A stretch of DNA of 64,000 nucleotides, taken from Centroberyx gerrardi (taxonomy: Eukaryota > Chordata > Actinopteri > Beryciformes > Berycidae). The DNA lies in the NCBI RefSeq assembly GCF_048128805.1, contig NC_136012.1, forward strand, positions 11,593,725-11,657,724, given 5' to 3'. Each line of letters starts with the position of its first letter. Position 1 is the stretch's first letter. The notes below the pieces were generated by a model. The model was not told the origin of the DNA. It did not search any database and saw nothing but the letters and a program-made list of their open reading frames with translations. A program made the position numbers and the translations under genes. Positions 26,951-53,415 of the stretch are shown piece by piece.

Positions 26951-27240
26951 CTATAAGAAGTTGAGTTTGTCTGAAGTGTAAACGCTGCAGGATTCCGAGG
27001 TGTCCACATCTAGCGGCATGGTGGAGAAGTACTCTTTCGCTGTGCTCCACCTCTCTTTATCCCCCTCTTTCTTGATCTGGAACTGAACGCAGTCCTCGGA
27101 CGAGTGGAGGCAGTCGGAGGCGCCGGGCATCGAGAAGGAAATCTTCCTCGCCGTCTCATTGGACGGGTCCTGATAGTGAGGAAGAAGGACATACGATACG
27201 GTTTTTAGTCAGTGTGCTGGATCCTGTGTTTCTCCAGATG

Positions 27241-27289
<49 letters not shown>

Positions 27290-30212
27290 CTGGAGCGTAG
27301 TAATATTACCTCAGCAGTGGAGTCGTGAGCAGCGGAGCTCCCAGCTGCCAGTCTGTCTGCTTCCTGGTTCTCAGATCTCACACCAACTGGGGATAACTGA
27401 GCTCCCGTTTCTACCATGACAGGAGTGTAACCCTGCACACACACAAACACACACACTCACTTTGCAGCAACGAAAAAAAGAAAAACGACGGGACTCGTTT
27501 CAAAGTGGATCAGCCCTACCATGTGAGTGGGACTGGCTCTTGGGCTCCACTTGCTTGGCGTCCCAGGCTGAACAGAGTGACTGTAGAAGGCCGAGGGCTG
27601 AGGACTCGGCTGGCTGTAGTCCTGCAACACAAACACAAGACATGGCAGCACAAGAGGATGAAAGGGAGATAAAGGAGAAACGGAAGACGAAACACAATTG
27701 GCCTCATTCATGAATCTTGCGTACTAAGAGATTTAAGAGAAAAAAAATTAGCATTCATCATTTTTTCCTTACTTGACCTTTTTCTTTGGTATGAACAAAA
27801 GTCACGAGTCATTTGAAACATTCTTACAATGAATCTCACTCAAGAAATTTATTCTTTGCAGGCTTTATGCTGGATGTATAACAATTTTGTATGGTTAAAG
27901 ACCTAAAATTAACAATCACAACTGATTTACATCAATATATACAATCCATATATGAATCATATGATGAATCAATGTCGCTCTTTGAATTAACCTCAGTTAA
28001 TTAATGGTGGCACTTTGGCATCTTTGGCAACTTTGGCTAAGTTATCAGCATATCCTGCATGTACTACAGAAGCCAATCACTGTGTTTTATTTTGCTCTTT
28101 AAGCATCTTATTGTTTTGCGCCTCCAAAGCAATCAATAAACTTTCACCCTCTGCATTGAGGTAGCTTCCACCCTTTTCTTTTTGTTTGCTGCGGGCCTGT
28201 TGGAAGCCCATATTTTCCCCCACTGTTCTCTTGTGGATATTTTGGCATCAGCAGTGTTTTCTGTGTCTGCGGTGGAAGCCTCGGTCAACATGGCTTCATT
28301 CAGCATGTTCCCTCACCTGTATATTGATCCTGGGAGGGTTAGCTGGAGGAGTGTGGTTTGCTCGGAGGCCGGTGAGGATCTGCGAGAGGCTGCAGTTCGG
28401 GTAGCGCTTCATGAACAGGATGAAACCGGCCAGCGACACGAACATACCGGACGGGACGGTGATGGACTTGAGGACCGCTCGCCATTTACCCGCCTTATCT
28501 GGAGAGGTCAGAGGCAGAGAGAAGGGATGAAGATGGAAAGAAACAAAAAACATCCAGATACAAGCGACACCTAAAACGCGTCCTGTCACTCACCGATCAC
28601 CTGCAGGGAGGTGGAGGACACCAGGTTGCCGTCCCTGTCTCTGATGTCGTACGTCCCATCGTGCCTCGCGGTTAGCCTGGCGATCACGACCTCGGTGACG
28701 GAGCCGTTCCTGCCCAGAGAGACGAGGCCGCGGTACCGCATGTCGTGGTCCATGACCTGGCCCTCCCGGATCAGCTGCACGGGGCCGCGGGGGGGCCTGG
28801 GGTCAAAAGGGCCAAGCGAGGATTCGTCCGGGTACCGGGTGGGGGTAAAAATGAGGTGGGCATGAGGGACAGGGAGAAAGAGGGGCAGGTTTAGAGACTC
28901 CTTGGAGAAGCGGGTGACATTGAAGGTGTGTCCTGCGGGGGGCCGTGTGCGGGATTATGAACAGAGAGAAGGATGGAGGATGAAGGAAAAGTAAGGAGAA
29001 GGCATGGGAAGGGGTGAGGGGGTGCCAGGTGGAAAGGGAAAGATAAGATATAAGCATTACCTTTGATAGGAGCCTAAAATTTAAGATGCCCATAACAAAT
29101 TTCACCAGCCTCTGTTCTCCCTGCCTCTAAAACCTCCCGTCCCCCTGCGCTCGGCCCCTGCTCACCCTGGACAGTGAGGGTGCTGCGGGACAGGACCTTC
29201 CCGCTCTCGTCCCGGACGGTGTAGTTGCCCTGGTCCGCCTGCGTCACCCTCTCGGCCACCCAGGCCTTCCCGTCCCGCTGCAGCCGGCCCCGGCCGCCGG
29301 CGTCGGCGTCGGTCCGATTCCACAGCACCACCGGCTCTGCCTCGGGCGGGGCACCCCGGGGCGAAAACTCCAGCAGGGAGCCGTCCTGGGGGATGCCGTG
29401 CTGAAAGGTCTCCCCGTAGTTTCTTCGGTAGGATTTGATACATTCTGAAGCGGGATGAAGGGGTGGAGGGAGGGGCGGGAGGAAATCAAAACATTCAATT
29501 TCAAACCAATCAGAGAGGAGGGCCGTAGAGAACACTTGTATATTAGGAAAGCAGAGAGGAGACTTTTCTACCTGAGACGGTGAGGCGAACTGTCTCATAG
29601 GTGAAACCGGACGACAGCTTGATGGCGTAGAGTCCCTGGTCACCGTGGGTCACTTCCTTCAGCACCAGCATCCGATCTCTGGTCCACTCAAACCGCGGGT
29701 CCTTCACCTGCATATAAAGGCTTTGCTGAACCTGTTTGAGCTGCACTGTACACAAGCAAACGCACACATGCACACTTTGACTCACTGTGTTCTTATCCAG
29801 CAGGACGCGCCGCGGGCCAGGAGGGGCGTTCGGTGTAAAAGTCACAATTCTTGACGCCGAGTACACCGGCAGGCGAAATTCCTTCCCGGCACACACAATC
29901 TGGAATTCTTCATTTTCACCTGTCAAAAAGTGTCAAAAAAACAAAAGCGGTACAGGGTCAACAAGCTCTTGCTGTCCTGGGTTAACTGACACAGAGAATA
30001 TTTGTAGGTGTGGGTGGGATGAGATGCAATGTCGCTCGCTGCTGACTCACCCAATGGGAAACCTGTTGGAAAAGACAGAATATGTAGCCCACTGGCAATA
30101 TAACAGTCCAAACATGTATTGAAATGAATTTGTACAGTGCAAATAATCTTGAAGACTTACCCATAGTGAGAGGAAGGGTGAAAAGGGCAGCCAGTAGCAC
30201 ACGGGAGAGCAT
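26951..30212 (-). CDS. IGA: three-domain Ig-like membrane receptor
   Basis: Ten coding exons join in frame to 525 residues: 30161-30212, 30051-30062 (12 base microexon), 29786-29919, 29572-29707, 29166-29444, 28594-28932, 28317-28498, 27520-27621, 27310-27432, 26951-27169. Layout: signal peptide MLSRVLLAALFTLPLTMG; Ig-like domain 1 over two exons (GENEEF to LTVS); domain 2 (CIKSYRRNYGE to TLTVQ) with VLWNRTD; domain 3 (HTFNVTR to LQVIG); one membrane span near VPSGMFVSLAGFILFMKRY; and a tail of about 160 residues ending SVYTSDKLNFL. Each domain has DxGxY (DQGLY, DQGNY, HDGTY) without the following Cys. I do not recognise a named family. It pairs head to head with IGB and is a paralogue of IGC in domains 1 and 2. 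Its ligand and signalling are unknown. Confidence 0.85.
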
Positions 30213-30959: not shown

Positions 30960-33419
30960 ATGTTTGCTGTAGTGAAGAGATTGCAGTTTTGGGCATATGT
31001 GCTGCTGGTTACAGGTTGCGCTGGTGAGTACGAGCTCTACTCACTGTCAGCCACTATACTATACAGGCAGGATGGACAAGAGCAGGGCCGACCTCATTCT
31101 GTCCAGACCGTCCAGACCTTGGTCCAGACCGGTGTTGGGAAGATGCTGTGAAAGTCTAGTTTGACAAGCTGCAAGTTATTTCACACTGGAAGAAGTAGAT
31201 CTACAGCCAAGCTGCAGTGTCACTTGTAATCAATCACATGACTGCAAAAAAAAAAAAAAGACACTGAATGCATCATCTGGGCCTTCACAGCGGTCAGTAG
31301 AGAGAAGGGGAGATAACTTCAATAAACAAGATAATATAAAAACTTCTTTAAATGTATAGCCAAAATAGTGGGTATCAAATTGAGAAAAAAGTATAAACTA
31401 TAAACAATACCCACATTTGAATTTAGTTGAACTGCAACTAAGTAAGTGCAAACTATAGTTAAACTACTGGTTTAATTTCATGTAGTTTTAAGAGCTCCTG
31501 TATGATATTGATGACACTGATGAAACCAGGGGACTTTTTCTGGCACAGTTGAAACTACACATTTAGGTGAGAACATCCAAAGTTGTAAAATCATTTTGAT
31601 TGGTAAAGATTAAGAATCATTACCCAACACAACTTTTTTTTATCAGGTGTAGTTTGCAGTGTTCTTTCTTTATATGCCAATTCAAGAAGGTCTCTCTCTA
31701 AATGTTTTCTGTTTTTTTGTGATTCTCAGATTGTTCTGATGAAGTAACCAAGTTGTACGGGCAGACGTACTCCTTGAGGGTACCCCAAAACGCCTATTTC
31801 TTGGAGTTCTCCTTCATGGGTGAGGATGAGTCAGTGCTCCTTTGGGATCGCACAGACCCTGGAGTCAGTGAGGGAGACAGAGGGCACATGGATGGAAACT
31901 GGTGGGTTATCTATAACGTCACCCAGCATGATCAGGGCCGCTACAGCCTCAGGGCCCAGAACAAGAGGTTGATAAAAACACATGAGCTCTGGGTGTCAGG
32001 TGAGGCCAGACAGTCCGCCTTCATCTTTTAAGTCTTTTCATCCTTAACTGACTTTTCATTTCTTTTTGCCATTACTTTGCTGCATCACATTTTAATATTA
32101 TGCCCCCTCCCCCTCTCTTTTCCTCCTTTAGAATGGGAACAGTATCACAGCAAAATGGAGGGTCAATTATGAGCTGTCAGCGATGACTTAATCTTTTGCC
32201 TCCCCTCTCTAATAGCTGATGATCCTCCGTACTTTTACATCGGTGTTGGAGTCGGCATTCTCCTCATGGTGCTTCTCTGCTGCTGCTGTGTGAGGAGGTG
32301 CTGCTGTAAGAAGAGCTCCTCTAAAAGGGACGACTCTGCTCCAGAGTCTGCAGCAGCACCCGCTGTGTATTACCATGATGTAAGTACCATCGCAAACACA
32401 AACACTACCATCTGCTACCAACTATTCATACCAATCTGCTGCATCACAGTTAGAAGGGAAGGGACGCTCTTCTCTGTTGCAGCCCTACATCATGATTTAG
32501 GCTAAGATGGGTGTATTTTTACATAAAAATCTTGCCTAGTGCAGATTTAATACTCTTTAATCTGATGAATGTCTCTGATACAATTGCAGAATACCAGCCT
32601 CCCCTCAGGCCCAAGTACCTGTCCACCAGCTTTCCTCCAGCAACCTTCAGGCCCAACAAATCCCACTTATTCCCCTGGCATTGCTTGCCCCAGCCAGTCT
32701 CCAGGTCTAGCTCGTCCCAGTCAGCCGTCGGGTCCGGCGTACCCCAGCCAACCTACTGTTACTGTTCATGATCCACTGGTAGGTGTAGTGACTCTGCATC
32801 CCATTTTTTTTGTTTCCGTTCTCCGCAACCTGAGGCATGAACTTGTATCCCTTCCCCTTACATACACACACAGACACACATGCAAAAAAACCACTCCACA
32901 CACACACTAACATTTTTTCCTGTTCTCTGCATTCTCCAGGTTCCAGCTTCAACTTACACTTACACTTATGAGCCCACTGGTCCCCTCACTGCTAGGGAAC
33001 CTGAATCCAGGTCCCTGGAGCCACCGGTAGGTGTTGTATTTTTATCCATGTGAACTCACCTAAACCTGAGGGATGCACATACTCTTAAATGCATGAAATG
33101 TAAAGGCACCAATGTCTCCTGGCATAAACCCAAACATTTAAACAAAGTTATAAGAAATTGCTCATTTCTTAAGTGTTTTTTGGTCCTGCAAAATCCCAAG
33201 CAGACCCGTTTCATCTTTCCTGTTCTCTGCGTCCTCCAGGTTCCAGCTTCAGGAGGCCCGGCAGCCGCTCCATCCGTCTCTCTCGGCTCTGACTGTCCCT
33301 CCTCGGACCCCGGGCCGCGGTTTGAGCTGAAGGGACTGAGCATTCCCTCCGCTCCCCCCCTCAGTTCAGACTCCACTCACTGTGACATCTACACCTCAGA
33401 CAAACTCAACTTCCTCTAA
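30960..33419 (+). CDS. IGB: one-domain Ig-like membrane receptor
   Basis: Six exons join in frame to 317 residues: 30960-31023, 31730-31999, 32216-32379, 32590-32778, 32940-33026, 33240-33419. Layout: signal peptide (VKRLQFWAYVLLVTGCAG); one Ig-like domain beginning DCSDEVTKLYGQTY with VLLWDRTDPG and DQGRYSLRAQ but no F-strand Cys; membrane span FYIGVGVGILLMVLL followed by CCCCVRRCCCKKSS; a proline-rich tail with PSGP and PSQP repeats; a YTYEPTGPLTAREPES exon; and the family end CDIYTSDKLNFL. The second-domain exon found in IGC has decayed here (see 32132). The Cys cluster next to basic residues would suit palmitoylation (inference). Not a family I can name. Confidence 0.87.
32132..32175 (+). 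pseudogene. Relic of a second Ig-domain exon in IGB
   Basis: After an intact acceptor (TTTAG) the frame reads EWEQYHSKMEGQ and then stops. It aligns with the start of the third Ig exon of IGC (EYTESYEKLVNEN) and lies at the matching place between the first domain and the membrane exon. The rest of the exon is gone. Splicing it in would end the protein early. Confidence 0.65.
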
Positions 33420-35824
33420 ACAGCCTTGACATGCCTATGATGAGTAGATGTTAGAAATGACATGATATTAGAAATAATTTAATTTCATTCTATTACTAAT
33501 GAAAATATGAGAAAATTAAGCACGGTGGGAGATGATTACGATAACTATGTTTGGAAAAAAAGTTCGTTTTTTTAAGAGAAAATAACAAAGAACGTAGTTT
33601 CTATCGTCCAATCACAGACATGCATTTATCGTAGGAGAGTGCATGCTTATCATTGGAGAAATAGTTTATCATAATCTAATCACAGAGATTCATTAACATA
33701 CATATTGTGATGCCTGCTTGTAGATGTTGCAGGCCAAAACAAATTTAAACAGTCTCAAAAATATCAGACAGCTCTCACATCGACAGAAAAGTTGGGAAAT
33801 GTCTAAATATTGCAGTGTAATCTACATAAATGCAGCGGTGCTATTTTTTCCCAATATGTTAAAAGAGCTGCTGCAGTAGCTGTATTTCCATCGACTATAA
33901 TCAGTGAGTAAACGACGTAATTGAATCAATACGACATGACCAAAATCTGAGTTCATTTAAAGGATGAACCTCGTTAAAAGGCTAACACTGTGACTCAGTC
34001 TAAAAATATGACAATGAACACTGCTCAGCCTGATGAACGCTGTGATATTATAGGTCCCCGAGGTCTCAGGGAAATGTTCCGTTGATTCTGTGCATCCTGT
34101 TTACTCAACTTTCCAATACCTCATCTAATTGTGCCTGTAGTTTTCGATCTGGAATATGTAATGTAAAGCAGTGAAGTTTAGAGAATGTCATTTATCCATG
34201 TATCTGTAGGTGTAATTTAGGTGCTGCTGATTATACCTATATCTACCTCAGAATCCGTATTTTATGGTCCAAGTGCTGGCAGCTACACAGTTATCACAAG
34301 CATCAGACAAATGACTTGTGAGCTTCCCTCCACCTGCCCACTGTCGGCTGGATGTGACTTTTTAAAATAACTCTTTACTGTCGGTTACAAACAGGCATTT
34401 TTTTTTAAAGATGGAAAAAGTCACTGAAAGTATTATCTTAATTTTTTAGTTTTTATGTGTACTGGTAGTATGATTGATGCAATAACCTCAGGTCACTGAC
34501 ATAGACAATATTGGGATATGTACGTGCCAAAAATGAATCTAGCATGTTTGCTCTTTTCTTGTAATACCTTGGTAGTGTGGGACACACACACACACACAAA
34601 CATACAAACCTCCATGCATAAGTGCACACACACTGACTTATCTAGTGCAACCCCAGTGTTTCCTATAGGAGCTCTTCAGGAAGGTGATCCTTAAACTGGT
34701 GACACCGCCTCAGGCCCAGTGACACTGATCACAAACCTGCTCCTCTCCATGTGCCTCCATCACTGCACAGGTGATGATTTCATATCAGATTGGATGTGTA
34801 GAAGGAGTACAAGAAGTGTAGTGTAGAAGTGCAGCTGTAAGAAACACTAAACCAGACTTGGGCAAAAAAATATTTTTTAAGAAGATATCAAATATTCCTT
34901 AAACCTGAAGTGCAATTATTTGAACTTGCCAAACCCTTTAACAGTGTGAACATTACTGAAGATAAATCAAGTATGTTTAATTTTACACATGAACAGTTTT
35001 GTTGCAACATGTTTTCTATTATATCATGTTTTTTATATTATACTGTATGTGCAAAATGGCTTTACTTTCTTTTCTACCAATGGATAACTTTATCTAACAC
35101 TACGATTATACTCCTGGTCTGTGTTCCATAAATAAAAAATGTGTTTTATTATTGAGATATACAGTACTCTAGCCTACATGTTTTTATTATTATTATTATG
35201 CAGTCAATACATGCAGAAAATCAATGGGCAAGATAAAAAAAGATAAAAATATTACATAAAATATATATACCAAAGCAGATAGAAAATATAATAATAATCA
35301 TAGTCTAAAACTTGAATAAGTGTTATTATGACAGCCCGCCCTTACGAAAAACTACAGTAATCCTATATATATTTTTAAGAATGCTACACAGGTGATGGTA
35401 TTAGGAGATTAAATACATATACATATACCACAGACACACTGGGTCCCTATAGGAATATTACAGTGATGTTTCGGTAGGGGTTATCGTATCTAATATTACC
35501 AGCAGGCTGGGTGGTAGACTGGGTTTGTGGTAATAAATTGTGGAGACTATGCGCAGATGTGGCGCAGCTACGAGGAAAACAAAGTATGGAGGGAGGGAGC
35601 CTCGCCCCGTAGAGAAGGTAAATGTAGCCTGGAGACGATCTCTGTCCTGGGACTGTAAACGCAAACTGGCCGCCAACTGGGAGGGAAAACATCTTTTTTC
35701 GCAGTGAGTACCTTACTTCTTACCACTTTTTAGCTCATGTCCAGTACTTTTATCCAATTATGTCCTCTTCTAACAAGTAGGGTTAGGCGAGTTATAACAT
35801 GTTAGTTCCCTTTCCCTGCAGGAC
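33420..35824. other. IGB 3' UTR and IGB-IGC intergenic region
   Basis: No coding exon. AATAAA at 35131-35136 on + is a candidate IGB poly(A) signal, which would give a 1.7 kb 3' UTR. The last few hundred bases before 35825 should hold the IGC promoter; an acceptor-like CCCTGCAG sits five bases before the IGC ATG, suggesting an upstream non-coding exon. Confidence 0.45.
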
Positions 35825-38800
35825 ATGTTCTGGTTACTTCCCCTCCTGGCTGTTTGTCGTTTCTCCGTCGGTGAGTAACCCAGTCTACCTATTCACCTAA
35901 CTAACGTTACCCAGTCCGACAGGGACAATGCAAGACGTGTAGGTTTCATAATACTTGCCATTTTAGTTTCATTGCCGCTACATAGTCGTAAGTGAGTAGT
36001 GAAACATGTTATAACGTTAGATATTTAGTATGTGGAATTGACACAAACGAGACAGGCTAGATTAGTGTTTATATCCAACACATTCTACCGTTGTTACCTC
36101 TGATCTTGTCATTATGCAACAGACAGTTTTAAACAGAGTTTGTTTGCCCCTGTAACTTTAGCACAAGCCAAGCTAACGAGGAATGCAACGAGAAAACGTT
36201 AGAAGGTGCTGCGGATGAGAGCAGTCTGAGCTAGCGACCACCTTGCTCGGTTCAGCGTGAATCATATTAAGTGCTTTCCTAAACAACGTAGAGTTTGCCA
36301 AAAGTTTGAAGCTAGCTAAAACGGGTCAGTTGAACAACTTATTTCCCTCTCCCCGCTACAAGCTGCTGCGCCGTGCTCAGTGCCTAGCAACGGCAGCTTC
36401 TTATTCACGGGAACAAAATGATGGGGAAACGTTAATAACCCAGTAAAGCATGTCAGTACACACATTTTTCACTTTCACTAACATCACTCAGTTGACTTTT
36501 GTACAGCTATATCAATAACTGTGTAATATGAGATGATAGTCAAGTGTTTTCACTCCATATTATATGAGTTACATTTTGGGCCACCGATGCAACTTGATTG
36601 CGCTAATTTTTCAAAACAAATTGTCTGTAGCCTGGCCCCAAAGATTTCCTACAAAGGGAGACAAGCACTGTTACATAGCATTAATTCGTATTTGCTTGTA
36701 GGCTGTTTAGCCCTTGAAAAGTCTGGAGTCAGATTCCTCACAACACCGTTTTGACATCTTCATGGATCTGTTCTGCATCTGCACATTTAAGAAGTTAGTC
36801 TTAAGCCCAAAGTGTCTTGGCAGGGTTAGGTTAGGGTTAGGCAGGTGCAGTATGGCACACTGGGGACTGAACATGAGTCGCTCTGGTTGGGACACAGCTT
36901 CCCGGCCACAAGGCCACTCTGCCGCCTATATCTGGACTGGTTAAATATGGAGAGAGCAGCCTGCCTACTAAAATACTTTAATAGGGTCTGAGTGGTCACT
37001 GGGACATTGGGACAAATTAGACTTGAGCTGGTTTCTATCTTTTTATTATGTCCCGCCACCATGCTACATGGTATGACATGATGTCATCATGGTGGCGTCT
37101 GTGTGTGTGTGTGTGTGTGTCTGTTTGTAGACACATTCTTGTGAACACAATAACTCAAGAACAACACATGATAGAAAGTTCATCCTCACACCATTGATCA
37201 TCTACTCCCTATAGAGTAGATGATTCATTTTCAGAACACCTTGCTGCTGCTGATAAATTTGCATATTAATCAGAAGGAATTTCTACTAACTGATGTTACT
37301 CCTTAATGTTTTACGATACGGAGTTCATATTAATACCACCCACGTGTTATGAGAAGTATGTTGACATAGAAATAATTGCTAATTAATGCATTAATTAGTG
37401 TAATTGGCTAGGTGGATGTATTTTAACCCCTGGAACAAAACGTAAATGGCATACAAAATGACCAAAATGATGACTTCTGATATAGAATTTTATGTTCTTT
37501 AATTTGCGAAATGTAAATAGTGATAGTGAAATGATACGTCATTTTATGAATTGAATAAACCAATTCCTATTTTTTCCAATAAATTAAAAGATGTAGATGC
37601 TTATGAAACCCTTTCAAAACCCAATTGGATAAACTCAAAAATGCATGGTGGTCAAACTGAAAACAAGGCTGTTTTTCTTAGTTCCTGAAAAGTTGATATT
37701 TTGGAGACACAAGGTTCTCACCCAACAGTGATGATATATATGTTATATATGTAGCACATCAGTCCATGTAAATAAATAGCTGAAGAACCCACAAGTACTT
37801 TCTGTGCTTTCTGTTGTCTGATGTGGTAAATTTAATATGAGGATTATGAGAGTTGTGTGAAAAAGTTACATTTTCATAACAATACAACTTATGTTACCTT
37901 TTCATCAATTAGATACTGCTCAGTAAAGAATACATGATTTCTAAAAAGGGGTTTTCTGTATACTGATGAAGTTTGATAGTGCCAAAGTACAGAGGAGTGA
38001 AGCGTCTCACCCTGACCGACTGGCATGAAGTTATCTCTTGATTAAAGTAAAAATAAAAATGACACATGCAAAATGTATTGTTTTCTTCAACTACTATTAC
38101 ATTTGTTTACAAATGAATTCACATGTTGTGAATCTTTCCTGTGGTATCAAATTTAAAACACAGGGTTTGCAGATATGTTCTGTGGCTACAAATTCCAAAA
38201 CACAAGTTTCTACAGTTTCTTCATTTTTTTCTACATGTTCTCAAATGTTTTGGGTCTGATTTTACTTATATTCACCAAATCTGTCTCCTCTTCACTTGTA
38301 TCCTTTCTTTTCAAGGTTCATATGCACTGCAGACAGAGGAGGAATGCTATGGCGGAATTTTCAAGTTACCGTTTGACAAAGTATCCGCTATGTTCACCGG
38401 AAAGCTGTTCTTCACTCCAACTAACCCCAGAGGTCCCAGGAAACTAGTGATGGAAAACAAAGAGGCGAGTGACAATTAGATCCCATTCAAATCAGGGCGA
38501 ACCAGGTCTCGATTGAATTGCCGCCGATTACAGGATAGAATTGTAATCTACTGTCGACCCTGAGTGCATGTATTTGTGTTGTCTACATATTCAGGTGAAG
38601 GACCCGCGCTACAGGTCGTCATATTTTATAGTTTCTCTGCTCGATGTGAGGGAGAGCGATGAAGGAATTTTTTCGATCAAACGCGATGATCATACGGAAT
38701 CTAATATCTTCAAACTGAAAGTTTTAGGTGAGAGCATTGTAATGTCACATTTAAAGGCACTGCTGTTATGGTGGTGGACTGTTTCACCTAAATACTTTTG

Positions 38801-40518
38801 ATTTAAATTTATTCTTCAATAGAATCAGCCAATATTGTTTTTTTTCTTTTTCTATACATGCTTTTTTAGATTGTTCTGACAAGGAATCAAGGACCTATGG
38901 GGAAAGGTACTCCACAAGTTTTTCCACAAGGGTAAACTTCCTGGAATTCACTCCCTTGCACAGCCTCGATCAGCCAAGGATCCTGTGGAATCGCACCGAC
39001 CCTCAAGCCAGTAGGGGAGGCAGGGGGAAGGTGGACTATAATGTCTGGGAGATGATGAAAGTCACCCAGGCAGACAACGGCTACTATAACTTCAGGAAAA
39101 AAGACAACACGATGGTATCTAGGAAGAAGCTCACAGTAACAGGTGACGACGTAAACTTAGAGTTGTAGAAATCGCCACTGTTTTATCACGCATAAGCCGG
39201 TTAGAATCGGGATACGTTCAGTTCATACGCCTGTCAGTCTTGTTCTAATGCAACCTACTCTTTATCATACACAGAGTACACTGAATCGTATGAGAAACTG
39301 GTGAACGAGAACCTACGCATCACTTTTGCTCTGGAACCCGCACTGTGCACCGTGAGCTTTACTCCCTGGTCGGAGATAGAACCCATACTGGTGATGAAAG
39401 CAGGGAGACTGATGGTAGATAGTCATGATTGGGGAACAGAAGATGACTTATTTTCAGGGAGAATTCGAATGCTAACATCCGTTGTACCCAGGTTGGGGTT
39501 AGAAATTGATCACCTAAAGGTCTCAGACGCTGGCCACTTTGAGGTCCGAGACCTGAATGACAACCTGGCCCTCGTTGTCAAGCTGAAGGTGAAGGGTGAG
39601 TAATGCTGAGGTTTTCCTTATGGGGGGGGCGGGGGGGCGGAACAACCCATCGCTTATGTTTCAAATCAACATAAACCACATCCATCTCTATGCTCTTACA
39701 GAATCTGCTCCTCAGTTGATCTATATTGTTATTGGTGTCGGTGCTGTCTTCGTGGTGGTCGCCTGCTGGTGCTGCGCGAGGAGGTGCTGCTGCTGCTGTA
39801 AGAAGAGCTCCTCTAAAAGGAACAGCTCTGTTCCTCAGACTGCAGCAGCACCCGCTGTGTACCATGATGTAGGTATCTCACCAAAGGGGCTTTCTGACAC
39901 TCGTATCGGGGTCACACATCTCTAGCTTGCAATATTTTGGGGCTTAAGGCGACTATCCGTTTTCATAATGTGCCGCTTTTTCTCATTTCAACATCCTCGG
40001 TCAACTTGCAGGATGCCAGTCAACCTTCACGCCCGAATTACTCGACTCCCCTATATGTTCCAACTTACACTTATGAGCCCACTCGTCCCCTCACTGCTAG
40101 GGAACCTGAATCCATCTCCCTGGAGCCACCGGTAGGTGTTGTATTTTTATCCATGTGAACTCACCTAAACCTGAGGGATGCACATACTCTTAAATGCATG
40201 AAATGTAAAGGCACCAATGTCTCCTGGCATAAACATTAAAACAAAGTTATAAGAAATTGCTCATTTCTGAAGTGTTTCTTGGTCCGGCGAAATCCCAAGC
40301 AGACCCGTTTCATCTTTCCTGTTCTCTGCGTCCTCCAGGTTCCAGCTTCAGGAGGCCCGGCAGCCGCTCCGTCCGTCTCTCTGGGCTCTGACTGTCTCTC
40401 CTCGGACCCCGAACTGCGGTTTGAGCTGAAGGGCCTGAGCTTTGCCTCCGCTCCCCCCCTCAGCTCAGACTCCACTCACTGTGATGTCTACACCTCAGAC
40501 AAACTCAACTTCATTTAG
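35825..40518 (+). CDS. IGC: three-domain Ig-like membrane receptor
   Basis: Eight exons join in frame to 462 residues: 35825-35870, 38316-38464, 38595-38727, 38870-39142, 39275-39595, 39702-39868, 40012-40131, 40339-40518. Layout: signal peptide MFWLLPLLAVCRFSVG; domain 1 over two exons (ECYGGIFKLPF to VKDPRYR..IFSIKRDD), the direct equivalent of IGA domain 1; domain 2 starting DCSDKESRTYGERY with ILWNRTDPQ and DNGYYNFRKK; domain 3 starting EYTESYEKLV with DAGHFEVRDLNDN; membrane span IYIVIGVGAVFVVVACW followed by a Cys/Arg/Lys cluster; and the tail ending CDVYTSDKLNFI. To align with IGA, the donor after exon 2 must be a GC donor (GAG/GCGAGT at 38464); a GT site earlier in the exon would also keep frame. 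Family not recognised. Confidence 0.85.
36905..37020 (+). mobile_element. Fragment of the same LINE family as 10536
   Basis: Sequence around 36930-37010 in IGC intron 1 resembles the ORF2 end at 11340-11430. The shared stretch encodes the equivalents of [11 protein letters not shown] and GLQDHWDT with frame damage. It is an older, degraded copy of the LINE in tcirg1. Confidence 0.7.
37601..37680 (+). repeat. Dispersed repeat R1, copy in IGC intron 1
   Basis: About 70 bases (TTATGAAACCC to AACAAGGCTGTTT) recur at 44086-44158 in the same orientation and at 44640-44710 in the opposite one. Probably a terminal part of a DNA transposon; class unknown. Confidence 0.7.
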
Positions 40519-42678: not shown

Positions 42679-45220
42679 ATGGGACTAACTGCCCGGGTCA
42701 TGAATTTCAAATCAGTGCAGATCATGATACTGTTGGTGCTGCTGGGTGCCTGTGTGGGTGAGTAGCTAGTGTGATGGTGAATCCTCCTTCACTTTCATTT
42801 CATTTTCATTTTACTGGATAAACAACATCCTTCCCTCACCATTATTCCTACATGGATTTATTGTGTATCTGTGGGGCTCAATAGTGAGTCCAGTAGGCTA
42901 CTTCATAGCAGTGACTCTCAAGCTTCTTCATATCAAGTACTCCTATTTTAGTCCATATTAGCGCCACGGACCCCCATTTGATGAGATTTTGTCTCTCGGA
43001 CCCAAATCTGAGGATATTTTTAGTGTCAGATATGATTTTGATTTCTAACAATTCATTTTCAATTCATTTGCTGGGGACCCCCTGGAACCTCCTCAAGTAC
43101 CCCTGGTGGTCCCCAGACCCACGTTGAGAACCACTGCTTTATGGTATCTACTATGGTATAACCAGAGGCACTTGTAGTTTTGATGTGATATTTGTGTGTC
43201 CCTCTAAAATGATTCCAGGATTACTACAGTTATTCTTCATAAAAGCTGATATACGTATATGACCATATCTGAAAACGAGAGATTTTGGATTTTATTCTTT
43301 TCTAGCCAAACTTACTGAAAGAAGTGTAAATCCTGTTGAAAATGTAAGGGAGAACAGGGCATTTATTCATTGGTGTATTTCTCAGTAATGCCTTAAGAAA
43401 GTAAACATTTTTGTAATTGGACTTTTGGCTCTAATATTTAATTTCAGCAATAAAGCCACTGAGACAACTTACTCACGTGACAATTTACCCCGCTCTCCCC
43501 TGCTTAAATGCTCCAAGGCTATAAGGGAGTGTTGACAGTGACAGAAGTTTTCATGTGTCCAGTCATTTCTTCCCCCTCAGCATCCTCAGTGTGTGTGTTC
43601 ACTCCCTCTCCAGGCCTCTCCAGTGACACATATGAGCTGGAGCAGCGTTATGGGGACCGCCACATGTTGAGGCTGCCCAGGGATGCGGAGTCCCTGGAGT
43701 TCAGCCCTATGTACGGCCCGCGACAGCTGGTGGTCCTGTGGAGACGGGACGAGCCTGTGGCCGGCGAGGCGGGCAGGGGGCAGCTGAAGGGGCACCTCTG
43801 GGTGATAGACAAGGTGACCCAGGCGGACAGCGGCCGCTACACAGTCAGAGGGAAGGACCGCAGAGTGATACTGAGCAAGGTCATCACGGTATCAGGTAAA
43901 GGTCCTCCTTATAGCTCTCATTTGATTTAATTTCCTGGGGAATTCTGACCCTTGCACTGCTTATAATTTTAATTATCTAAGAAATTGAGTTTATTCTACT
44001 GTTGAACTCACTGTAAGTCATTCTGAATTAGAACATCAACTCAATAAACATCAATTAAAAATGTGTAAATCCTACAATCCTCAGGTTTATGAAACCTTTT
44101 TAAAACCAATTGGATAAACTCAAAAATGCATGGTGGTCAAGCTGAAAACAAGGCTGTTTATCTTTTTGGGAACACAGCAACACAATATGTGAAAATGAAT
44201 CGACATGTCATTTCGTGACATTAATAACATCCTCTTTCTCGCGCTTCCTCTCTTTCAGCGCACACAGAGTCCCATGGCATGATGGTGGGGGAAGATCTCA
44301 AGTTCTCCTTCGATCTGGACCCCGCCTCGTGCCGCCTCACCTTCTTCCCGGAGGATGACGCCGATTCGTACGAGTTGGTCAGTGAAGGCAGCCTGCAGGA
44401 TAATTTCTTTCACAGCAGGATTCAGCTGCTTCGCTCCTATTCGTCCACGTTTGTGGTTTTGATCGAGAGCCTCCAAACCTCGGACTCCGGACGCTTTGAG
44501 CTCACAGATCAGAACGGCAACCTGGCCCTGATGGTGAACCTGGAGGTGATGGGTAAGTCCTACTAAGTCCTCTCTATCATATTGTCGCCGTCAGGGGGAA
44601 ACCTAGTATCTCTGAAATGTCAGATTTTCAGAAGAAGAAGCCTTGTTTTCAGATTGACCACCATGCATTTTTTAGTTTATCCAAAGGGGTTTGAAAGGGT
44701 TTCATAAGCCCAAGGGGTTGCAACATTTTCTCAACCTGTAGAAGACAGGTGTAATGTAATCCTTCAACTGAAGTGAAAACATGAGAATTAGTTAGAAAAA
44801 CAGTTAGGGGGTGGAGTTAGGGGTTTTTCACATGACAACAGTAATATGTATGTTCTCTGTAAAAGAACAAACACATGAAAAAAAGTTTGAAGTTTTGATC
44901 CAAAATGAGACATCCAACATTTGAAAAAAAAACCCTGCTCTTATCAAATGATTGATATCACAAAGTTAAACCAGTTAATAAAGTTATGATCACTTTCAAC
45001 TTCCATGATTAACAAAATAAAAGCCATTCTACAGACTGTCTTTATATTTTAGAGATGTTGAATGATGAAGTTAAGGAATGGCTTTTCCATAATGGAATAT
45101 TATAGAGCATTTTGGAATAGAACTCTTCACAAACATAAGAGGAAAGACATACAACACATGCACATGGATGAGTTAGACGATGACTTACGAGTGGCACAAA
45201 CGCACTGTCTTTCCCACCTG

Positions 45221-45259
<39 letters not shown>

Positions 45260-48200
45260 CCTCACTGTCCTCCAGCACCCGCTCCTCTGTCGTTCTACAT
45301 CGGCGTCGCGGTGGGCGTTCTCTTCATGGTGCTCCTCTGCCGCTGCTGTGTGAAGAAGTGCTGCTGCGGGACGAGCCCCTCCAAGACAGACGACCCCGCT
45401 CCTGCTGAGCCTGACGCCGCACCCACTGGGTATTACCAGGAGGTGAGAATCTGGGTTAAACCTGTATGTGTGCACAGTAGTATACAAATCGTTTGACTAA
45501 AGCAAGTTTAAAAGTAGCTGTTATGCTGTTGATATCACATTCCCATCATGCTGCATTCAAACTGCAGAATACCGCCGAGCCTGCTGGACCGAGGTACAGC
45601 CAGCCCACTGCCGTCAGTGTGCCCTCCCCTTATCGTGAGGTATGAGCACACACACACACACACACACTCACACACACTCACACTCACACCCACACACACA
45701 CACACACACTCACTACTCAATAAACAAACTTGTTCTTATGGCTACCTTGGAAAAATGTTATATTAGTAAGAGTACACTGTAAATGCAAAAATTTACTTCA
45801 CCCGTTGTGGGTCAAAATGACTAAGCAAGGTTCAAAAGTCTTCTGTGGATTCTTTATTCAGACATGCATGGTTCAGTTCAGTGTTCCAAACAAGCAACAA
45901 AGAAGTGACCAAGAACGGAGTTCAGGATCCACTTATATAGGTTAAAGTAAACAAAACTATAAATCTTGGCCCATAGCCAAACCTACTTGGCTCAAAACCA
46001 ACCCACTAGTTCAGACTTTTAACTGCATGTCCACCTATAGAATCACTCAAAACCACACATAACCATATATAGTGATCATGCATGCATTCAAGCACTGATT
46101 ACATCATTATAGTAAGCAGGACAAAAGACACTCCACTTTCCAGGACAAAGGAAAGCAAGAACAGAGTGTACTATCCATATAAAAAAGCACAATATTAATT
46201 TTATTTCTTACATTCCTCCCTTTTGTCACAAGGTGACAACTAAGATTAAAATAAAATAACACCAGATACATCCTACTCTATGTATACTTCACTTAAACAG
46301 TGAGGAAAACATCTCTTCTAAGAGTTACAAACAAGCTTCAATCAACACGAATAAAAACCCAAAATAAAGGAAAACAAAAAAGGAATAAAAAAAACCCTCG
46401 TCTTCAACCCATGAGCTTTACACTCAGTAGAGGGCTACCACTCTGGAGAGGTTTACTAGCACATTCGATGCAGAGTGGTTTCCCCTCGTTCATCTAAGAG
46501 CTGCTTCGTCGTTGTCACTATCATCCTAGAAGACAGATGCATTTTGCAAAATGGGAGAGACAGGGAAAAAGAACAGCAGCTTTAGCTGCAGCATCAGCAA
46601 CAGCATTTCCCTATGAAACTGGATCAACACCACTTGTATGAGCCTGACAATTACAAACAGCATGAAAATTATGACACATTGAAAGCATACTGAGAGTCTG
46701 CATAGACCATGATATCTTCTCCAGCACCTAGAATAAAAGCACGAGTTAAGGCAAAGAGTTCTGCTGCTTGCGCAGAAAGATGTCCTGTTGAACCCTCTAC
46801 AAAGAAAACAAAGTCAGGGTTAGTCAGTGGTATGTTAAACAAGGCATCACAAAGTTTGGTAGCAATGTCAATCACTTGCAAACAGCAGTGGGGTTCACTT
46901 TCCTCTGCTGTAGGAAGAAGTATGGAAGGGTTAAGGACAACACTTCAAAGTAACATAAGACATAGTAAATAGAACATTCTGCCAATGCAGCATCTTCGCA
47001 GGAGTCAGGTAAGCAGTCTTAGCCTAAAGGATGAGAGAATGAACAGCATATGGAACATGTACAGTTAAGGGACACATAGCAACAAGGTCAGCAGTTGCAA
47101 GGACAGCTTCAGTAGCTGCAGCAACAGACCTTAGGCACGAGACCATTGCTCTCTCAGTTGTAGACAGATGTTTAGAAAAATAACCAACAAGGCGTTGCTT
47201 GTCACCATGGGACTAAGTTAAAACAGCTGACATAAACCCATCTCGTTCAGAGACAAACAGATTAAAGGGTTTACTATGGTCAGGGAGTCCTAAACAGGGA
47301 AAATTAGAAAGAGCTAATTTCAAGTTAGTAAATGCTTTGTCAGCTTCAGTAGTCCAAGTCAGGAAGTCAGTCATGGCCAAATGTTTACCACTGTGCACGA
47401 TGTCATACAGTGGTTGAGATATCTCTGCATAGTCACGTATCCATGGGCGGCAGTAGCCTACAAGACCCCAAAACAACATAATTTGCTGTTTTATTTGAGG
47501 TTTTGGTACCTCCAAAATTGCTGTAACGCATTCGGGACCGAGTTTACGACCTTCAGGTGTGACTATATGTCCTAGATAACGTACGGACCGTAAAACCAGC
47601 TGGATTTTGGTTTTGAGACCTTGTGTCCGTTCTCTGCTAAGTAACAGAGAATGGAGACAGTGTCTGTTTTGCAGGCCTGCTCAGAAATGGAACACAACAA
47701 CAAATCATCCACATGCTGTATCAATGTACTACCACAAGGAACCTCCCAACCTGAGAGGTTCTCAGCTACAGCCAAAGCAAACAAAGTGGGGCTGCTTGAG
47801 AAACCCTGAGGCATACGAGTCCATGTGTAGCACTTACCATTGAAAGTGAAAGCAAACCAGAACTGGAAGTTAAGATGCACAGGAATGCTGAAAAAAGCAT
47901 TAGCCAAATCAATCACAGTAAACCAACAAGAATTAGATGGGACCTGAGACATTAAAGTTACCACATTTGGTACTGTGGGCGCTGGATGTTGCACAGCGTC
48001 ATTTACAGCTCTCAAATCCTGAACAGGTCTCCAACCACCATTAGGCTTCCTAATGGGCAGAAGAGGGGTATTACAAAGAGAATGAGGACGCTCCACGACG
48101 GCACCTTGTTTTTTCAGTGACTCAATATCAGGAGCAATTCCCTCCACAGCCTCTAGGCTGAGGGGATATTGCCTCTTACATGGTCTGAAAGAGGATTTAG

Positions 48201-51200
48201 GTTTTACCACTACAGGTGTTGCAGTTTCCTACAACCAAAATCAAAACCGCTAGTAGCCCATAGTATAGGCGGAATCATGGAAATCATATTTTCTTCTTCA
48301 GTTGTTAAAGGCATATGAACAAAAGAGGTGGTGTCTGGTTCTTGGTGAAGAAGAACATCCTCATCTACATGCTCTTGAGATCCTAAAAATAACCCTCATA
48401 TGTTGTCATAGTAAAAATACCTAGCATCTTAGAAGAAAGAATGATACCTTCCGGACTGCAGTACATATTTATTCCCAAAGCACACATGAGATCACGCCCT
48501 AACAAATTCACTGGACAAAAATCTGTCAACAAGAAAGGATGATCTCCTAAGTAATCACCATAAGTGACAGAAAGTGGTTCAGAAATCGGTTCTAACACCG
48601 GAACTCCTAATGAGCCAACTGTTTTAAGAAATTTTGTCATTTTGGGCGCATTTGGGAGTAATTTGGACTGCACAACGGAAACATCAGCACCAGAATCAAC
48701 CCAAAAAAAAAAAAGGGCACCACTACATTTCCTACTTTCAAACTTAATTTAGCTGCTTTCTGTTTCCTTGGGTCTAATTTAGAGTACTGACCTTGAGTTA
48801 TAATAGGGTCAGTGTCTGCCTATCCATCTGAACTATCCTGTTCACCTATCTGACCTGTCCCCGCTATCTCCTATGGGTTAGCTGGCTGGAATCCTGGAGC
48901 ATTCACAGACAGGCTTGAGGGTTGCATGTGGCCAGGATCCATCAGGTGCATTCTCACGTCTTTGTATGCCAGACCTGTGATCTGATGAACAATCACGAGC
49001 CATATGACCATACCCCCCACAGTTGAAACACCTTAGACGTTGCTGGTTGTAAAACTGTGTGGGTGGCCCTCTTCCATAGTCTCTTCCTCCACGTCCTCGT
49101 CCTCTTCCTCGTCCTCTGCGCATTTCATTGCCCCAAGTTCCCGTCTGTTGATAAAACATTAACTGTGCAGATTGGATCTTCTTACTGTGTCTTTGCTCGA
49201 TGTCAGTCTGGTTCCTTTCCGCATGGAGGACATGAGCCCAGACTTCGCTGAGGGGTTTGGTTTCCCAGGCGATGCACGTAGTCATGGTCTGATTCTTCAG
49301 AGTTGGATGGAGGCCTTGTATCAACGCAGTCTTCAGCAGGTTGTTGTAGGCATCATTATCCTGGTCAACACCAGAATGGGCAGCAAACACAGATTCCATT
49401 CTAGCACGATAATCAGTAGCAGACTCACCATCATTCTGCTTGGTCCTGTAGATTTTAGGCCAACTGGTACGCAGGGAAAACGCGGTTTTCACAGCAAAGT
49501 AGAGCTCATCCACCTGGTCTCTGTATTTCTGGTAGCCTGGATCATAGATTGTGTCCCAGCTGGCTGGCTTGATGTTCGGCCATTTTAACAGAAAACACCT
49601 GCGACATACTGCTTCCACCTCTGCCAACGTAGGATTATACATTATCAACAACTGTTTCATTGCAACCTCCCTTTTCTCACCTCCGGTTTTGTGGGGATCC
49701 AGCAGATCTTTGGAAACTTCCTTCAGCTCATCAGGTTGCCATGGCCTGTGGACCAGGACATGCGATTGCCAGAGGCCTTGACTGTTATCTGATTGTGGAT
49801 TTGGATACATCATCATAGGCATCTGGTACACTGTCTCTGTCTGTAGGTTCGCTGCCATGCTACGAGTCTGTGGGCGGTGTGAAACAGAAGTACCAGAGGC
49901 AAAACCTACATTTGAAGGAGGAGTTAAAAGCCCCAATGAAACCTCCTTCTCCTTGAGCTCAGACCCTCCCACAGTTTGTAGTGATGGATAAACAGTGGAT
50001 GGTTGAGGTGGAGCCTGAGATGTAGGAGGGGCTGAAGCTGCCATCTTTAGGACCGCCCCCTTGTTGTCATCTTCCTCATCATCACTCTCGTCGTCACACA
50101 TTCCTGATGGTGGAGTTGTGCGAGAAAGAGCATGGGGGGAAGCAGGTCCCTCTCTCTGTCCCTACTTTTCTTCTTCTTTTTCCTTCTGCTAACCCTTTCT
50201 TCTTCTCTCTTAGTCATCTCTTCTGTCCCTTTTGAAAGCATCACATTAGCTATGAACTTTACTGCTTTAGCTTCTGCTTCTCGCTCCCACTTTTGGAACG
50301 CATTCCAATTTACCTTCTGTTTACTCTCCTCACTCACTTTCATCTTTTCCTGCTCTTCTTTTTCTTCTAGCATAACCCTACATCTAGTTAAACAGTTTAC
50401 GCTCAGAGTGCCTCTTATTGGAAAAACACCTTCAGTAACGTAGTGCCAAAACGGAACATCCTCAACCACGCTTTTTCCCCATTTTTCTTCTATCACTTTT
50501 ACAGGACCTGCAAGTGGGTCTGAAAGTAGTTCTACTTTTCCTAGTGTGCTTTCCATCTCGCTCTCAGTTGTGGTTGCTTTCTTTTGTTTTTAGAAGGCCA
50601 GTGTGGCCTCTTCCCTAGACACAATTTATGATGCTGGTGTCCGGCACCGACAAGCTACCTCCCCTCTTTGCTCTCTCTGCTCTGCAACTTTACTCACTTT
50701 CTTTTTTTTTTTTTCCACTCGGACCACACAATAAAATCCCCCTGGACAAATTACTATGTCAAAAGTCTTTTACACTAAATATCACAATAAGTATCTATTT
50801 TCTAAATTTTATAGGCGATGACTCCTCTATACCCGCTATGATAAACATATATCATTATTATTATTATTATTATTCCAACATACACTATTAATTTCGGTAC
50901 CTTGACAACCACTTCACCCTACTCTATTACACACCCATCACTCATTCACAACTTCATTCACACAATGCCAATGAAATGAACCATGATATCAGCCAGGTAG
51001 TTTGTACGACACTTTCGTTCAGAGCAACGTACCCTTTGTGTGGATAAATACCCACAGGACACTGATATCACCGCTTCATTCCCATCCACTCACAGTATAT
51101 CACAAACAATATCTCCCCTTAAAAACTTTTTTTTTCCTCCTTTTTTTTTCTTTTCTTTTTTCACTTAGGATCCCTTTCTACCCCCTGGGCTATTTCTCTT

Positions 51201-52089
51201 TCTACCCCCTGGGCTTTGTCCCTGACAATCTTCCTTATCTAATAACGGCAACCTCCCTGAGGCCTAACTATCCTCCCTGAGCTAAAATTTTACGCCCCCA
51301 TTAACTACCTAGGTTTTTTCTTTTCTCTTACTTGTTGCAACTATGAGAATACCTCCCTGAGGAAAAATGTTTTACTCCCTCCCTGAGGAAGAGAAAAAAA
51401 ATTCACAGAAACTCACCACTTGCTCTTTAAATAGATGGACGACCCACTGAACGCCACCCGTGCCTGACTTTGGGCGGGATCCAGACCTCCTTTGCTGGAG
51501 CGGAACTATCCCTGAGTCTCCTAGAGACTCCTGCCGGCAGTTGACCCTCAGTCTAGCCCCAGGCGTCGCTCAGTGCTGTGTCCATCCCATCCTCGTCGCC
51601 AAACTGTAAATGCAAAAATTTACTTCACCCGTTGTGGGTCAAAATGACTAAGCAAGGTTCAAAAGTCTTCTGTGGATTCTTTATTCAGACATGCATGGTT
51701 CAGTTCAGTGTTCCAAACAAGCAACAAAGAAGTGACCAAGAACGGAGTTCAGGATCCACTTATATAGGTTAAAGTAAACAAAACTATAAATCTTGGCCCA
51801 TAGCCAAACCTACTTGGCTCAAAACCAACCCACTAGTTCAGACTTTTAACTGCATGTCCACCTATAGAATCACTCAAAACCACACATAACCATATATAGT
51901 GATCATGCATGCATTCAAGCACTGATTACATCATTATAGTAAGCAGGACAAAAGACACTCCACTTTCCAGGACAAAGGAAAGCAAGAACAGAGTGTACTA
52001 TCCATATAAAAAAGCACAATATTAATTTTATTTCTTACAACACAGGTAAAGTTTGTTTATTCATCTGCAAATTCATCTCTCTATTTCTC

Positions 52090-52140
<51 letters not shown>

Positions 52141-53415
52141 AACAAAGCCCTTGGAGCTAATCTCCTGAGCTCCTTGGCTTTGTTTTGTTTTGTTTTTTTC
52201 TCAGATCATATGTTGGCCTTTCTTGTGTATAATTAACTTGCACCGTCTTTTTACCTCCTCCACTGTAATGGGAAGATCTCTCACTCAAGCCTTCTGCCTC
52301 TGTCCTCTGTTGCACAATTCTTTGACACTTTTGTTTCTTTGACAATCCAGCAAACGACATTGCAGTTAGCCCGATAACTCATAACAACTTCTGATTTTTA
52401 ATACTGTAATTGAGGATCCAAAAAACAAATGACAATAAAATGTACTTACTTGCGTTACTGTAATCACATTACTTTTTCCTGTACGACTTTTTCGGTCGTT
52501 ACTTGCGTTACATTTGAACCTTTTTATTGGTGTAATATCTATGAAAAATTCCCCTTGTCTTATCCTGCCTTCAAGTCATGTTGGAAATAATCAGAATTGC
52601 CAGTAGAGCAAACATGAACGAGCCAAAAAAGTGGTAAATACTCACTGCAGTCCCGGACGCCGGAGCTTCCCACCAGCACGTGAACGCATCAGAAGACCTA
52701 CAGACTTTTCAGATCAATGTGCAGTTTTATCTAAATTATCACGCAAAATAACTGAAAAAAATAAACCCGGGGCAGGAGCAAGTTTCTCGTCTCTGCAAGT
52801 TGATTTTCATGCTGTAAGGAAAGTAATGGCTGCCTGGGAGGAAAAAAGTATGATATACATGCTGTATATATGCAAAAAAAAAAGAGCTATACAGTCTGAC
52901 AGGCCCCACACTCTTTTTAAAGGCTGTACTGTAGCTCTCTCATCACACTACAGTGCCTGTCCTCTTGCACAATTCTTTGACACTTTTTTTTCTTTGACAA
53001 TCCAGCCAGATAGACACTGACGATCCTCTGGTCTCGTTTGTTTATGACACTTATGCTTATGTATCTAAATTAATGTGGTAGTGATGTTAATATACTACTC
53101 ATGGCACGTTTAAAAGCAGCTCCAGCAAGCGATAATATCAGTCAGTATTTGGGGCTTCTGTGTTCCGGGCAGTGCTGCATCAGTGTGCGGGCTTGCCTCT
53201 CACGCACAGCGACCTTTTTGTGTTTTTCTGTCCAGGTTCCAGCTTCAGGAGGGCAGGCAGCCGCTCCATCTGTCCCTCTTGGCTCTGACTTTCTCTCTTC
53301 GGACCCCGGACCGCGGTTTGAGCTGAAGGGACTGACCTTTCCCTCCGCTCACCCCCTCAGCTCAGACTCCACTCACTGTGACGTCTACACCTCAGACAAA
53401 CTCAACTTCCCCTAA
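42679..53415 (+). CDS. IGD: two-domain Ig-like membrane receptor
   Basis: Six exons join in frame to 357 residues: 42679-42757, 43614-43895, 44259-44552, 45276-45442, 45568-45639, 53236-53415. The ATG at 42679 is used; an in-frame ATG at 42700 is equally good. Layout: signal peptide around VQIMILLVLLGACVG; domain 1 (YELEQRYGDRHMLRL, VVLWRRDEP, DSGRYTVRGKD); domain 2 (HGMMVGEDLKFSFDLDP, DSGRFELTDQNGN); membrane span FYIGVAVGVLFMVLL followed by CRCCVKKCCCG; a short tail exon (SQPTAVSVPSPYRE); and the family end CDVYTSDKLNFP. The last intron is 7.6 kb because a retrovirus inserted in it. The domain pair matches domains 2 and 3 of IGC. Family not recognised. Confidence 0.85.
42909..43136. mobile_element. 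hAT-like MITE in IGD intron 1
   Basis: Begins CAGTGACTCTCAA and ends TTGAGAACCACTG, an inverted pair of the CAGTGGTTCTCAA type common in fish hAT-derived MITEs. The flanking 8-mers CTTCATAG and CTTTATGG match at 6 of 8 positions, as an old target duplication would. Confidence 0.75.
44086..44710. repeat. Inverted pair of repeat R1 in IGD intron 3
   Basis: The copy at 44086-44158 matches 37601-37680 directly. The copy at 44640-44710 is its inverse and the arms face each other. The domain-2 exon 44259-44552 of IGD lies between the two arms. Confidence 0.75.
45230..45257. repeat. (CA)n microsatellite before the IGD membrane exon
   Basis: Short CA array ending about 18 bases before the acceptor of the exon at 45276. 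Confidence 0.9.
45645..45712. repeat. CA-rich microsatellite
   Basis: Imperfect CA array with CT interruptions just after the IGD exon ending 45639. Confidence 0.9.
45778..46212 (-). repeat. ERV 3' LTR
   Basis: 435 bases with TGTAA...TTACA ends. On reading both copies by eye I find no difference from the 5' LTR. Confidence 0.95.
46213..46224 (-). promoter_or_regulatory. ERV polypurine tract
   Basis: On minus the sequence AAAAGGGAGGAA directly abuts the 3' LTR, the expected position for priming plus-strand DNA synthesis. Confidence 0.9.
46669..48673 (-). pseudogene. ERV pol remnant (protease, RT, RNase H)
   Basis: Separate open segments on minus carry a protease-like piece (48383-48673, near LLGRDLMCALG), reverse transcriptase (47572-48210; LPIRKPNGGWR, the DLANAFFSIP region and a VDDLLL catalytic box), the connection region (47213-47515) and an RNase H piece (46669-46881, with a YADSQYA site). 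They lie in at least two reading frames with stops between, so no full pol can be made. Integrase is missing. Confidence 0.88.
48878..50556 (-). pseudogene. ERV gag remnant, frameshifted
   Basis: The N-terminal part (50047-50556, MESTLGKVELL) is matrix-like and Lys/Glu rich. The second part (48878-50101) has a proline-rich stretch, a capsid-like region and an Arg/Gly-rich nucleocapsid with one CX2CX4HX4C zinc knuckle (CFNCGGYGHMARDC). The two parts are in different frames and overlap near 50047-50101. A single frameshift has probably split one gene. The stop near 48878 separates gag from pol. Confidence 0.85.
51584..51601 (-). promoter_or_regulatory. ERV primer binding site, tRNA-Ser(GCT) type
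   Basis: Three bases inside the 5' LTR, 18 bases starting TGG on minus are complementary to the 3' end of vertebrate tRNA-Ser(GCT) as I recall that tRNA. The position and the TGG start are diagnostic of a primer binding site. The tRNA identity should be checked. Confidence 0.85.
51605..52039 (-). repeat. ERV 5' LTR with promoter signals
   Basis: 435 bases. On minus it contains a TATATAAG box (about 51759-51766) and an AATAAA signal (51680-51685) some 80 bases downstream. This order defines U3, R and U5. The promoter would read away from the last IGD exon and against the IGD transcript. Confidence 0.93.
52083..52140. repeat. (CT)n/(CA)n microsatellite
   Basis: CT array passing into a CA array just outside the right end of the retrovirus. 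Confidence 0.9.
52301..53006 (+). repeat. Dispersed repeat R2, copy A
   Basis: The body 52452-53006 matches 62390-63055 in inverse orientation. It starts GCGTTACTGTAATCACATTAC and ends CTTTGACAATCCAGC. The last 50 bases also occur as a direct copy at 52301-52351. Short protein-like stretches (RRPTDFSDQCAVLSKLSRKI) are shared by both copies and may derive from a transposase. Confidence 0.8.

Follow-up and report, generated by a model that had tools for sequence, protein, structure and literature searches.

We analysed a 64 kb stretch of Centroberyx gerrardi DNA, referred to here as the window, in which the interval between prpf19 and tmem109 holds four paralogous immunoglobulin (Ig)-like genes, IGA on the minus strand and IGB, IGC and IGD on the plus strand. 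Models rebuilt from exon borders carry three, one, three and two Ig-like domains, respectively, in agreement with a preliminary description of the same DNA, which had given these places, strands and domain numbers. That description also had all four models closing in frame; this holds for IGA, IGB and IGD, which run from ATG to stop, but IGC needs an upstream signal exon. The genes and their exons are as follows.

26951..30212, minus strand: IGA, nine coding exons, 521 amino acids, in-frame ATG to stop, AG/GT borders
IGA exons, minus strand: signal-like 30212-30161; D1 29919-29786 and 29707-29572; D2 29444-29166; D3 28932-28594
IGA exons, 3' part, minus strand: transmembrane (TM) 28498-28317; tail 27621-27520, 27432-27310 and 27169-26951
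30960..33419, plus strand: IGB, six coding exons, 317 amino acids, in-frame ATG to stop
IGB exons, plus strand: signal-like 30960-31023; single D2-type Ig domain 31730-31999; TM and Cys-rich juxtamembrane 32216-32379
IGB tail exons, plus strand: 32590-32778, 32940-33026 and 33240-33419
38316..40518, plus strand: IGC, seven coding exons found, 446 amino acids plus a start that is absent from the model
IGC exons, plus strand: D1 38316-38464 and 38595-38727; D2 38870-39142; D3 39275-39595
IGC exons, 3' part, plus strand: TM 39702-39868; tail 40012-40131 and 40339-40518
42700..53415, plus strand: IGD, six coding exons, 350 amino acids, in-frame ATG to stop
IGD exons, plus strand: signal-like 42700-42757; D2-type 43614-43895; D3-type 44259-44552
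IGD exons, 3' part, plus strand: TM 45276-45442; tail 45568-45639 and 53236-53415

Intron borders are AG/GT in all four genes, the sole exception being a GC-AG intron in D1 of IGC (GC donor at 38465). Phases are 1-1 for Ig exons, 1-0 for TM exons and 0-0 for tail exons, alike across the four genes, and D1 of IGA and IGC is split by a phase-0 intron. The first exons of IGA, IGB and IGD are called signal-like from their position and hydropathy. Each protein has one hydrophobic segment C-terminal to its Ig domains (hydropathy 1.76 at amino acids 325-343 of IGA, and 2.65, 2.68 and 2.33 in IGB, IGC and IGD), which in IGB, IGC and IGD adjoins runs of cysteine that are likely a juxtamembrane palmitoylation site. 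The cytoplasmic tails are rich in proline and tyrosine, and all four proteins end in YTSDKLNF followed by one residue (L, L, I or P).

Paralogy had been proposed from domain sequence, exon phase and C-terminal peptide, and all three lines of evidence bear it out. Alongside the matching phases and the common YTSDKLNF ending, the D2 domains are 37-43% identical in pairs, with blastp E values of 6e-18 to 4e-22 (13-sequence set, without composition correction) and tblastn E values of 3e-15 to 6e-19 against the window, and the D3 domains of IGC and IGD match with an E value of 8e-20. Across the six D2 pairs, synonymous divergence (dS) is 0.82-1.89 and nonsynonymous divergence (dN) is 0.53-0.70, with dN < dS in all. 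Because of these D2 E values and dN/dS relations, we read the four genes as coding paralogues and not as chance reading frames. Searching the 64 kb window with all nine domains (tblastn, E <=0.05) returned the modelled exons only, with a few codons or read-through of the D1 intron; the search being empty outside the models, additional members of the family within the 64 kb were rejected.

Ig-like domains without a disulfide pair

Seven of the nine domains contain one cysteine and two contain none. As no domain has two cysteines, the pair that forms the usual Ig disulfide is absent throughout. The strand-F motif DxGx[YF] is present in eight domains, IGA_D3 having H in place of D, and the position of the strand-F cysteine (DxGx[YF]xC) is hydrophobic in all nine (I, I, V, L, F, V, I, V, L). 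By a loose pattern the strand-B cysteine position is hydrophobic in eight domains. For IGA_D1 the automatic pattern took an earlier stretch and gave C, whereas the alignment reads V, and the domain has one cysteine in either case. Because no domain has more than one cysteine, and the strand-F position is hydrophobic in each, a canonical B-F disulfide cannot form within any of the nine domains. The lone cysteines lie close to the domain start in five domains and at position 25 in two; they could form bonds linking domains or chains.

This pattern is new with respect to the preliminary description and is the most unusual point of the locus. The canonical B-F disulfide is usual in Ig domains but not obligatory, and surface Ig receptors usually depend on it in at least some of their domains. 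To our knowledge, the disulfide-free exceptions (CD2 domain 1 and the CEACAM N domain) have disulfide-bonded domains as neighbours. A family lacking the pair in all of its domains would be a test of how Ig receptors remain stable and diversify outside the cell.

An AlphaFold2 model of the D2 domain gave a confident V-like Ig fold (predicted local distance difference test score, pLDDT, 90.5), that is, the beta-sandwich of the immunoglobulin superfamily (V/I type). With this model, the best Foldseek matches include JAML, CD2/CD58 and CEACAM; CD84, CEACAM15, CEACAM1 and pIgR domains are also listed by Foldseek, and the best 50 rows of VIA-align include sodium channel beta-4, JAML, nectin-1, IgLON5, NEGR1, 2B4, NTB-A and pIgR domains. 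A profile of all nine domains matched CEA, CEACAM1 and CEACAM6 with E values of 3e-7 to 4e-5, and a D2 profile matched CEACAM1/3/6 weakly (E 0.072-0.92), other Ig proteins scoring higher in both cases. A PDB sequence search with IGD alone returned nothing up to E 5, and viral contigs searched for relatives of the D2 alignment gave 49 pattern matches, none of which was confirmed. Because the standard Ig models score below their cut-offs, the family could be under-annotated.

Diverged ectodomains and homogenised tails

Divergence falls from the ectodomains towards the C-termini. The three D3 pairs have dS of 1.19-2.70 and dN of 0.52-0.89, with dS saturated and the values rough; the TM exons are intermediate (dS 0.31-0.73), and dS in the final coding exon is 0.14-0.19 among IGB, IGC and IGD. 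Two tracts carry this likeness.

32958..33413, plus strand: homogenised 3' tract of IGB, partner IGC 40063-40512, 94.3% identical over 456 columns
53231..53429, plus strand: last IGD exon and a little of its flanks, at 92% identity with IGB 33235-33433

Within the first tract, the last introns of IGB and IGC are identical at 202 of 207 aligned bases (98%), with 6 gap columns, whereas likeness is only ~40% in the 3' flank and in the intron that follows the TM exon. The last exon of IGD agrees with that of IGB at 165 of 180 positions, with flanks ~50% alike. Between IGB and IGC the intron differs less than the last exon (5/207 against 15/180, Fisher p 0.011), so protein constraint cannot explain the identity of the intron. 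Recent gene conversion or a similar exchange can explain the likeness of the two introns, and older exchanges or constraint can explain how the last exon was kept alike across IGB, IGC and IGD. A single recent conversion of the whole tract was considered and dropped, the exon being less alike than the adjoining intron. Because the exon differs more than the intron, and its differences are scattered from base 33 to the exon end, it appears more likely that two or more events took place or that a tract ended close to the exon start. Judged by these comparisons, the family is one in which ectodomains diverge while tails stay alike.

Insertions and neighbouring genes

The last intron of IGD carries a ~6.3 kb retroelement bounded by long terminal repeats (LTRs).

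45778..52039, minus strand: LTR retroelement within the last IGD intron, with its coding strand antisense to the gene

Its LTRs (45778-46212 and 51605-52039) are identical at 437/437 positions, with ACAC on both flanks, and because of this identity the insertion appears very recent. A gag-like zinc knuckle and a reverse transcriptase score above their Pfam cut-offs, and RNase H-like matches fall below. Integrase and env appear to be missing, because little sequence separates the RNase H region from the LTR near 46212; no further search for them was made. Short dispersed repeats, 83-94% identical and in both orientations, lie upstream of IGC (37599-37716) and in IGD introns (44084-44164 and 44600-44710). 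A longer dispersed repeat has two copies, at 52492-53006 and 62390-62945, that face opposite ways and share 80% identity over 565 columns; the former copy holds an open reading frame without a Pfam match to E 0.01.

The flanking genes named in the preliminary description were recovered, both on the minus strand. One prpf19 exon matches the Prp19 WD40 model with E 5e-14, short of that model's whole-domain cut-off, and passes the cut-off of the WD40 model. The tmem109 gene matches the BRI3BP family (E 1.2e-33). We take the two to be close neighbours in human 11q12; from this order the preliminary description suggested that the cluster may have expanded on the fish side or been lost in mammals. 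Elsewhere in the window, an open reading frame at 17603-18046 (minus strand) resembles by eye the N-terminus of a tcirg1-like V-ATPase a subunit, a 39-amino-acid piece having no Pfam match. A RING finger exon at 61400-61645 (minus strand) has a zf-C3HC4 match and presumably resembles RNF20/RNF40.

Interpretation and known systems

A cluster of paralogous, putative Ig-like receptors is well supported, because the fold model, the Ig profile matches, signal-like exons in three of the four genes, TM segments in all four and the common exon phases point the same way. We propose, with a probability of roughly 0.6, that IGA-IGD form a small family of type I membrane proteins working like surface adhesion or recognition receptors of the CD2/CEACAM type. 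This proposal builds on the observed gene structures, cysteine pattern and tail homogenisation and on the predicted D2 fold. Each protein would combine between one and three V-like Ig domains with one membrane span and a Pro/Tyr-rich cytoplasmic tail ending in YTSDKLNF, with hydrophobic residues replacing the B-F disulfide in every Ig domain. The proteins would be placed at the surface of leukocytes or epithelial cells, bind ligands there and signal through the tail tyrosine. The ligand-binding domains would have diverged while gene conversion held the tails alike, and because of this the paralogues would probably recognise different ligands and share one signalling route through the conserved tail. 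Such an arrangement of diverged heads on a common tail makes a signalling motif in the tail testable. Membership of the CD2 or CEACAM families is not claimed, because later domains in those families have cysteine pairs and those of IGA-IGD have none. More tentatively, the genes may represent a whole receptor family that is tied to the prpf19-tmem109 interval and missing from mammals, with only disulfide-free V-like Ig domains (one to three), fast-diverging recognition domains and gene-converted common tails. If so, this would be a recognition system that is stable without oxidative folding of its Ig domains.

Several results weigh against the CD2/CEACAM-like proposal. The gene models are predictions from sequence. 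The D3-type AlphaFold2 model is weak (pLDDT 65.9), too weak for a fold search, and the best 50 VIA-align rows for D2 hold no CD2, CD58 or CEACAM entries. In none of the four proteins does any family reach its Pfam gathering cut-off, the best Ig scores being 16.1 of 23.7 bits (I-set, IGB) and 18.7 of 26 (V-set, IGC); as single domains, that of IGB reaches 19.9 of 23.7 bits for I-set and the others E 0.039 or worse. The top matches of IGB are FAM163 and TMEM52, below their cut-offs and over the TM region, and the D2 and nine-domain sequence profiles point rather to Robo, contactin, titin and VEGFR. In IGA the TM segment is weak and the poly-cysteine stretch is absent. The penultimate exons of IGB and IGC have a dN of 0.23 above a dS of 0.17, over 29 codons only. 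No tail holds an immunoreceptor tyrosine-based activation motif (ITAM), and a string resembling the inhibitory motif (ITIM) occurs in one of four, SPYREV of IGD, which spans an exon junction and is doubtful. Members of paired-receptor families with these motifs (NITR, DICP and others) may carry neither. An immune role, as put forward in the preliminary description, is thus something we infer; the word 'adaptive' was rejected, since nothing seen supports it, and no recombination-signal scan was made. A further difficulty is that no convincing first exon was found upstream of IGC, where a single candidate lies within 33451-38316.

35825..35867, plus strand: candidate IGC signal-peptide exon (MFWLLPLLAVCRFSV), weak

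Because 15 of 100 shuffled sequences also gave at least one candidate through the same filter, this exon is not established. The IGC reading frame is open from the first Ig exon to the stop, provided that an upstream exon supplies the first base.

The most serious alternative is compatible in its mechanism with the CD2/CEACAM-like proposal and is itself probable: these may be fish Ig-domain proteins already catalogued as uncharacterised loci or under another name, in a cluster that is ordinary for fish. The family may already be listed among uncharacterised Ig-like membrane proteins. As the paralogues are old (D2 dS 0.82-1.89), related fish should have the family. In the available text of PMC5340972, putative Ig-like receptors that are uncharacterised are numerous in zebrafish, and for some Ig-like membrane proteins no orthologue was detected outside teleosts. 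Set against this, a search of the open-access literature with guessed wording gave no paper tied to the locus by title or abstract. The accessible part of PMC11599192 mentions neither prpf19 nor tmem109.

It is rather doubtful that the proteins have no immune role and serve in structure or adhesion in epithelium or nerve (contactin/Robo/SCN-beta-like). The nine-domain profile does find Robo1/2, axonin/contactins and titin as its best matches, and sodium channel beta-4, JAML, nectin-1, IgLON5 and NEGR1 are structural neighbours, but matches of this sort are a mark of the Ig fold in general. It is more often in immune families that clustered paralogues differ in domain number and have converted tails. 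We consider it unlikely that at least one of the models, with IGC and IGD the first suspects, represents a decaying copy that is not expressed in the modelled form. IGC has no certain signal exon and requires a GC-AG intron, and splicing of IGD has to span a young antisense LTR element; yet the modelled exons contain no stop or frameshift, and dN/dS is below 1 in all six D2 pairs. Least probable is that these are named teleost immune receptors (NITR, DICP, NILT or CD300/pIgR-like), inhibitory or activating, that have lost their cysteines: the paralogues are clustered and vary in domain number, pIgR domains occur in both structural searches and the D3 profile matches pIgR best (E 3.9e-5), but all nine domains lack the cysteine pair, the tails hold no ITAM and a single ITIM-like match, and in the available text of PMC3031540 most CD300 domains have two cysteine pairs (CD300-type domains one or two), as has the C-proximal domain of carp SITR, with a WCR motif in strand C.

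Compared with known systems, IGA-IGD resemble the teleost NITR, DICP, NILT and CD300-like (SITR) families, which likewise occur in fish, have Ig ectodomains and are in many cases multigene. NITR and DICP domains carry cysteines, whereas no IGA-IGD domain has a pair, and IGA-IGD likewise depart from CD300/SITR/pIgR-like domains as characterised by cysteine pairs in the accessible part of PMC3031540. JAML and sodium channel beta-4 rank high among the fold matches of the D2 model, but at ~17-21% identity, and a common fold is no proof of function. The CEACAM proteins share a disulfide-free N domain, and CEACAM15 and CEACAM1 are structural matches; in contrast, their A/B domains have cysteine pairs where the later domains of IGA-IGD have none or one cysteine, and the IGA-IGD tails hold only the one doubtful ITIM-like string. 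The tail search covered ITIM and ITAM, and no search was made for SLAM or CD2 tail motifs. CD2 and SLAM receptors differ in their disulfide-bonded second domain. The predicted V-like fold is nevertheless shared with V domains of the CD2/CD58/SLAM type (CD2-CD58 and CD84 by Foldseek, 2B4 and NTB-A by VIA-align), and hydrophobic residues stand in the place of the B-F disulfide as they do in CD2 domain 1.
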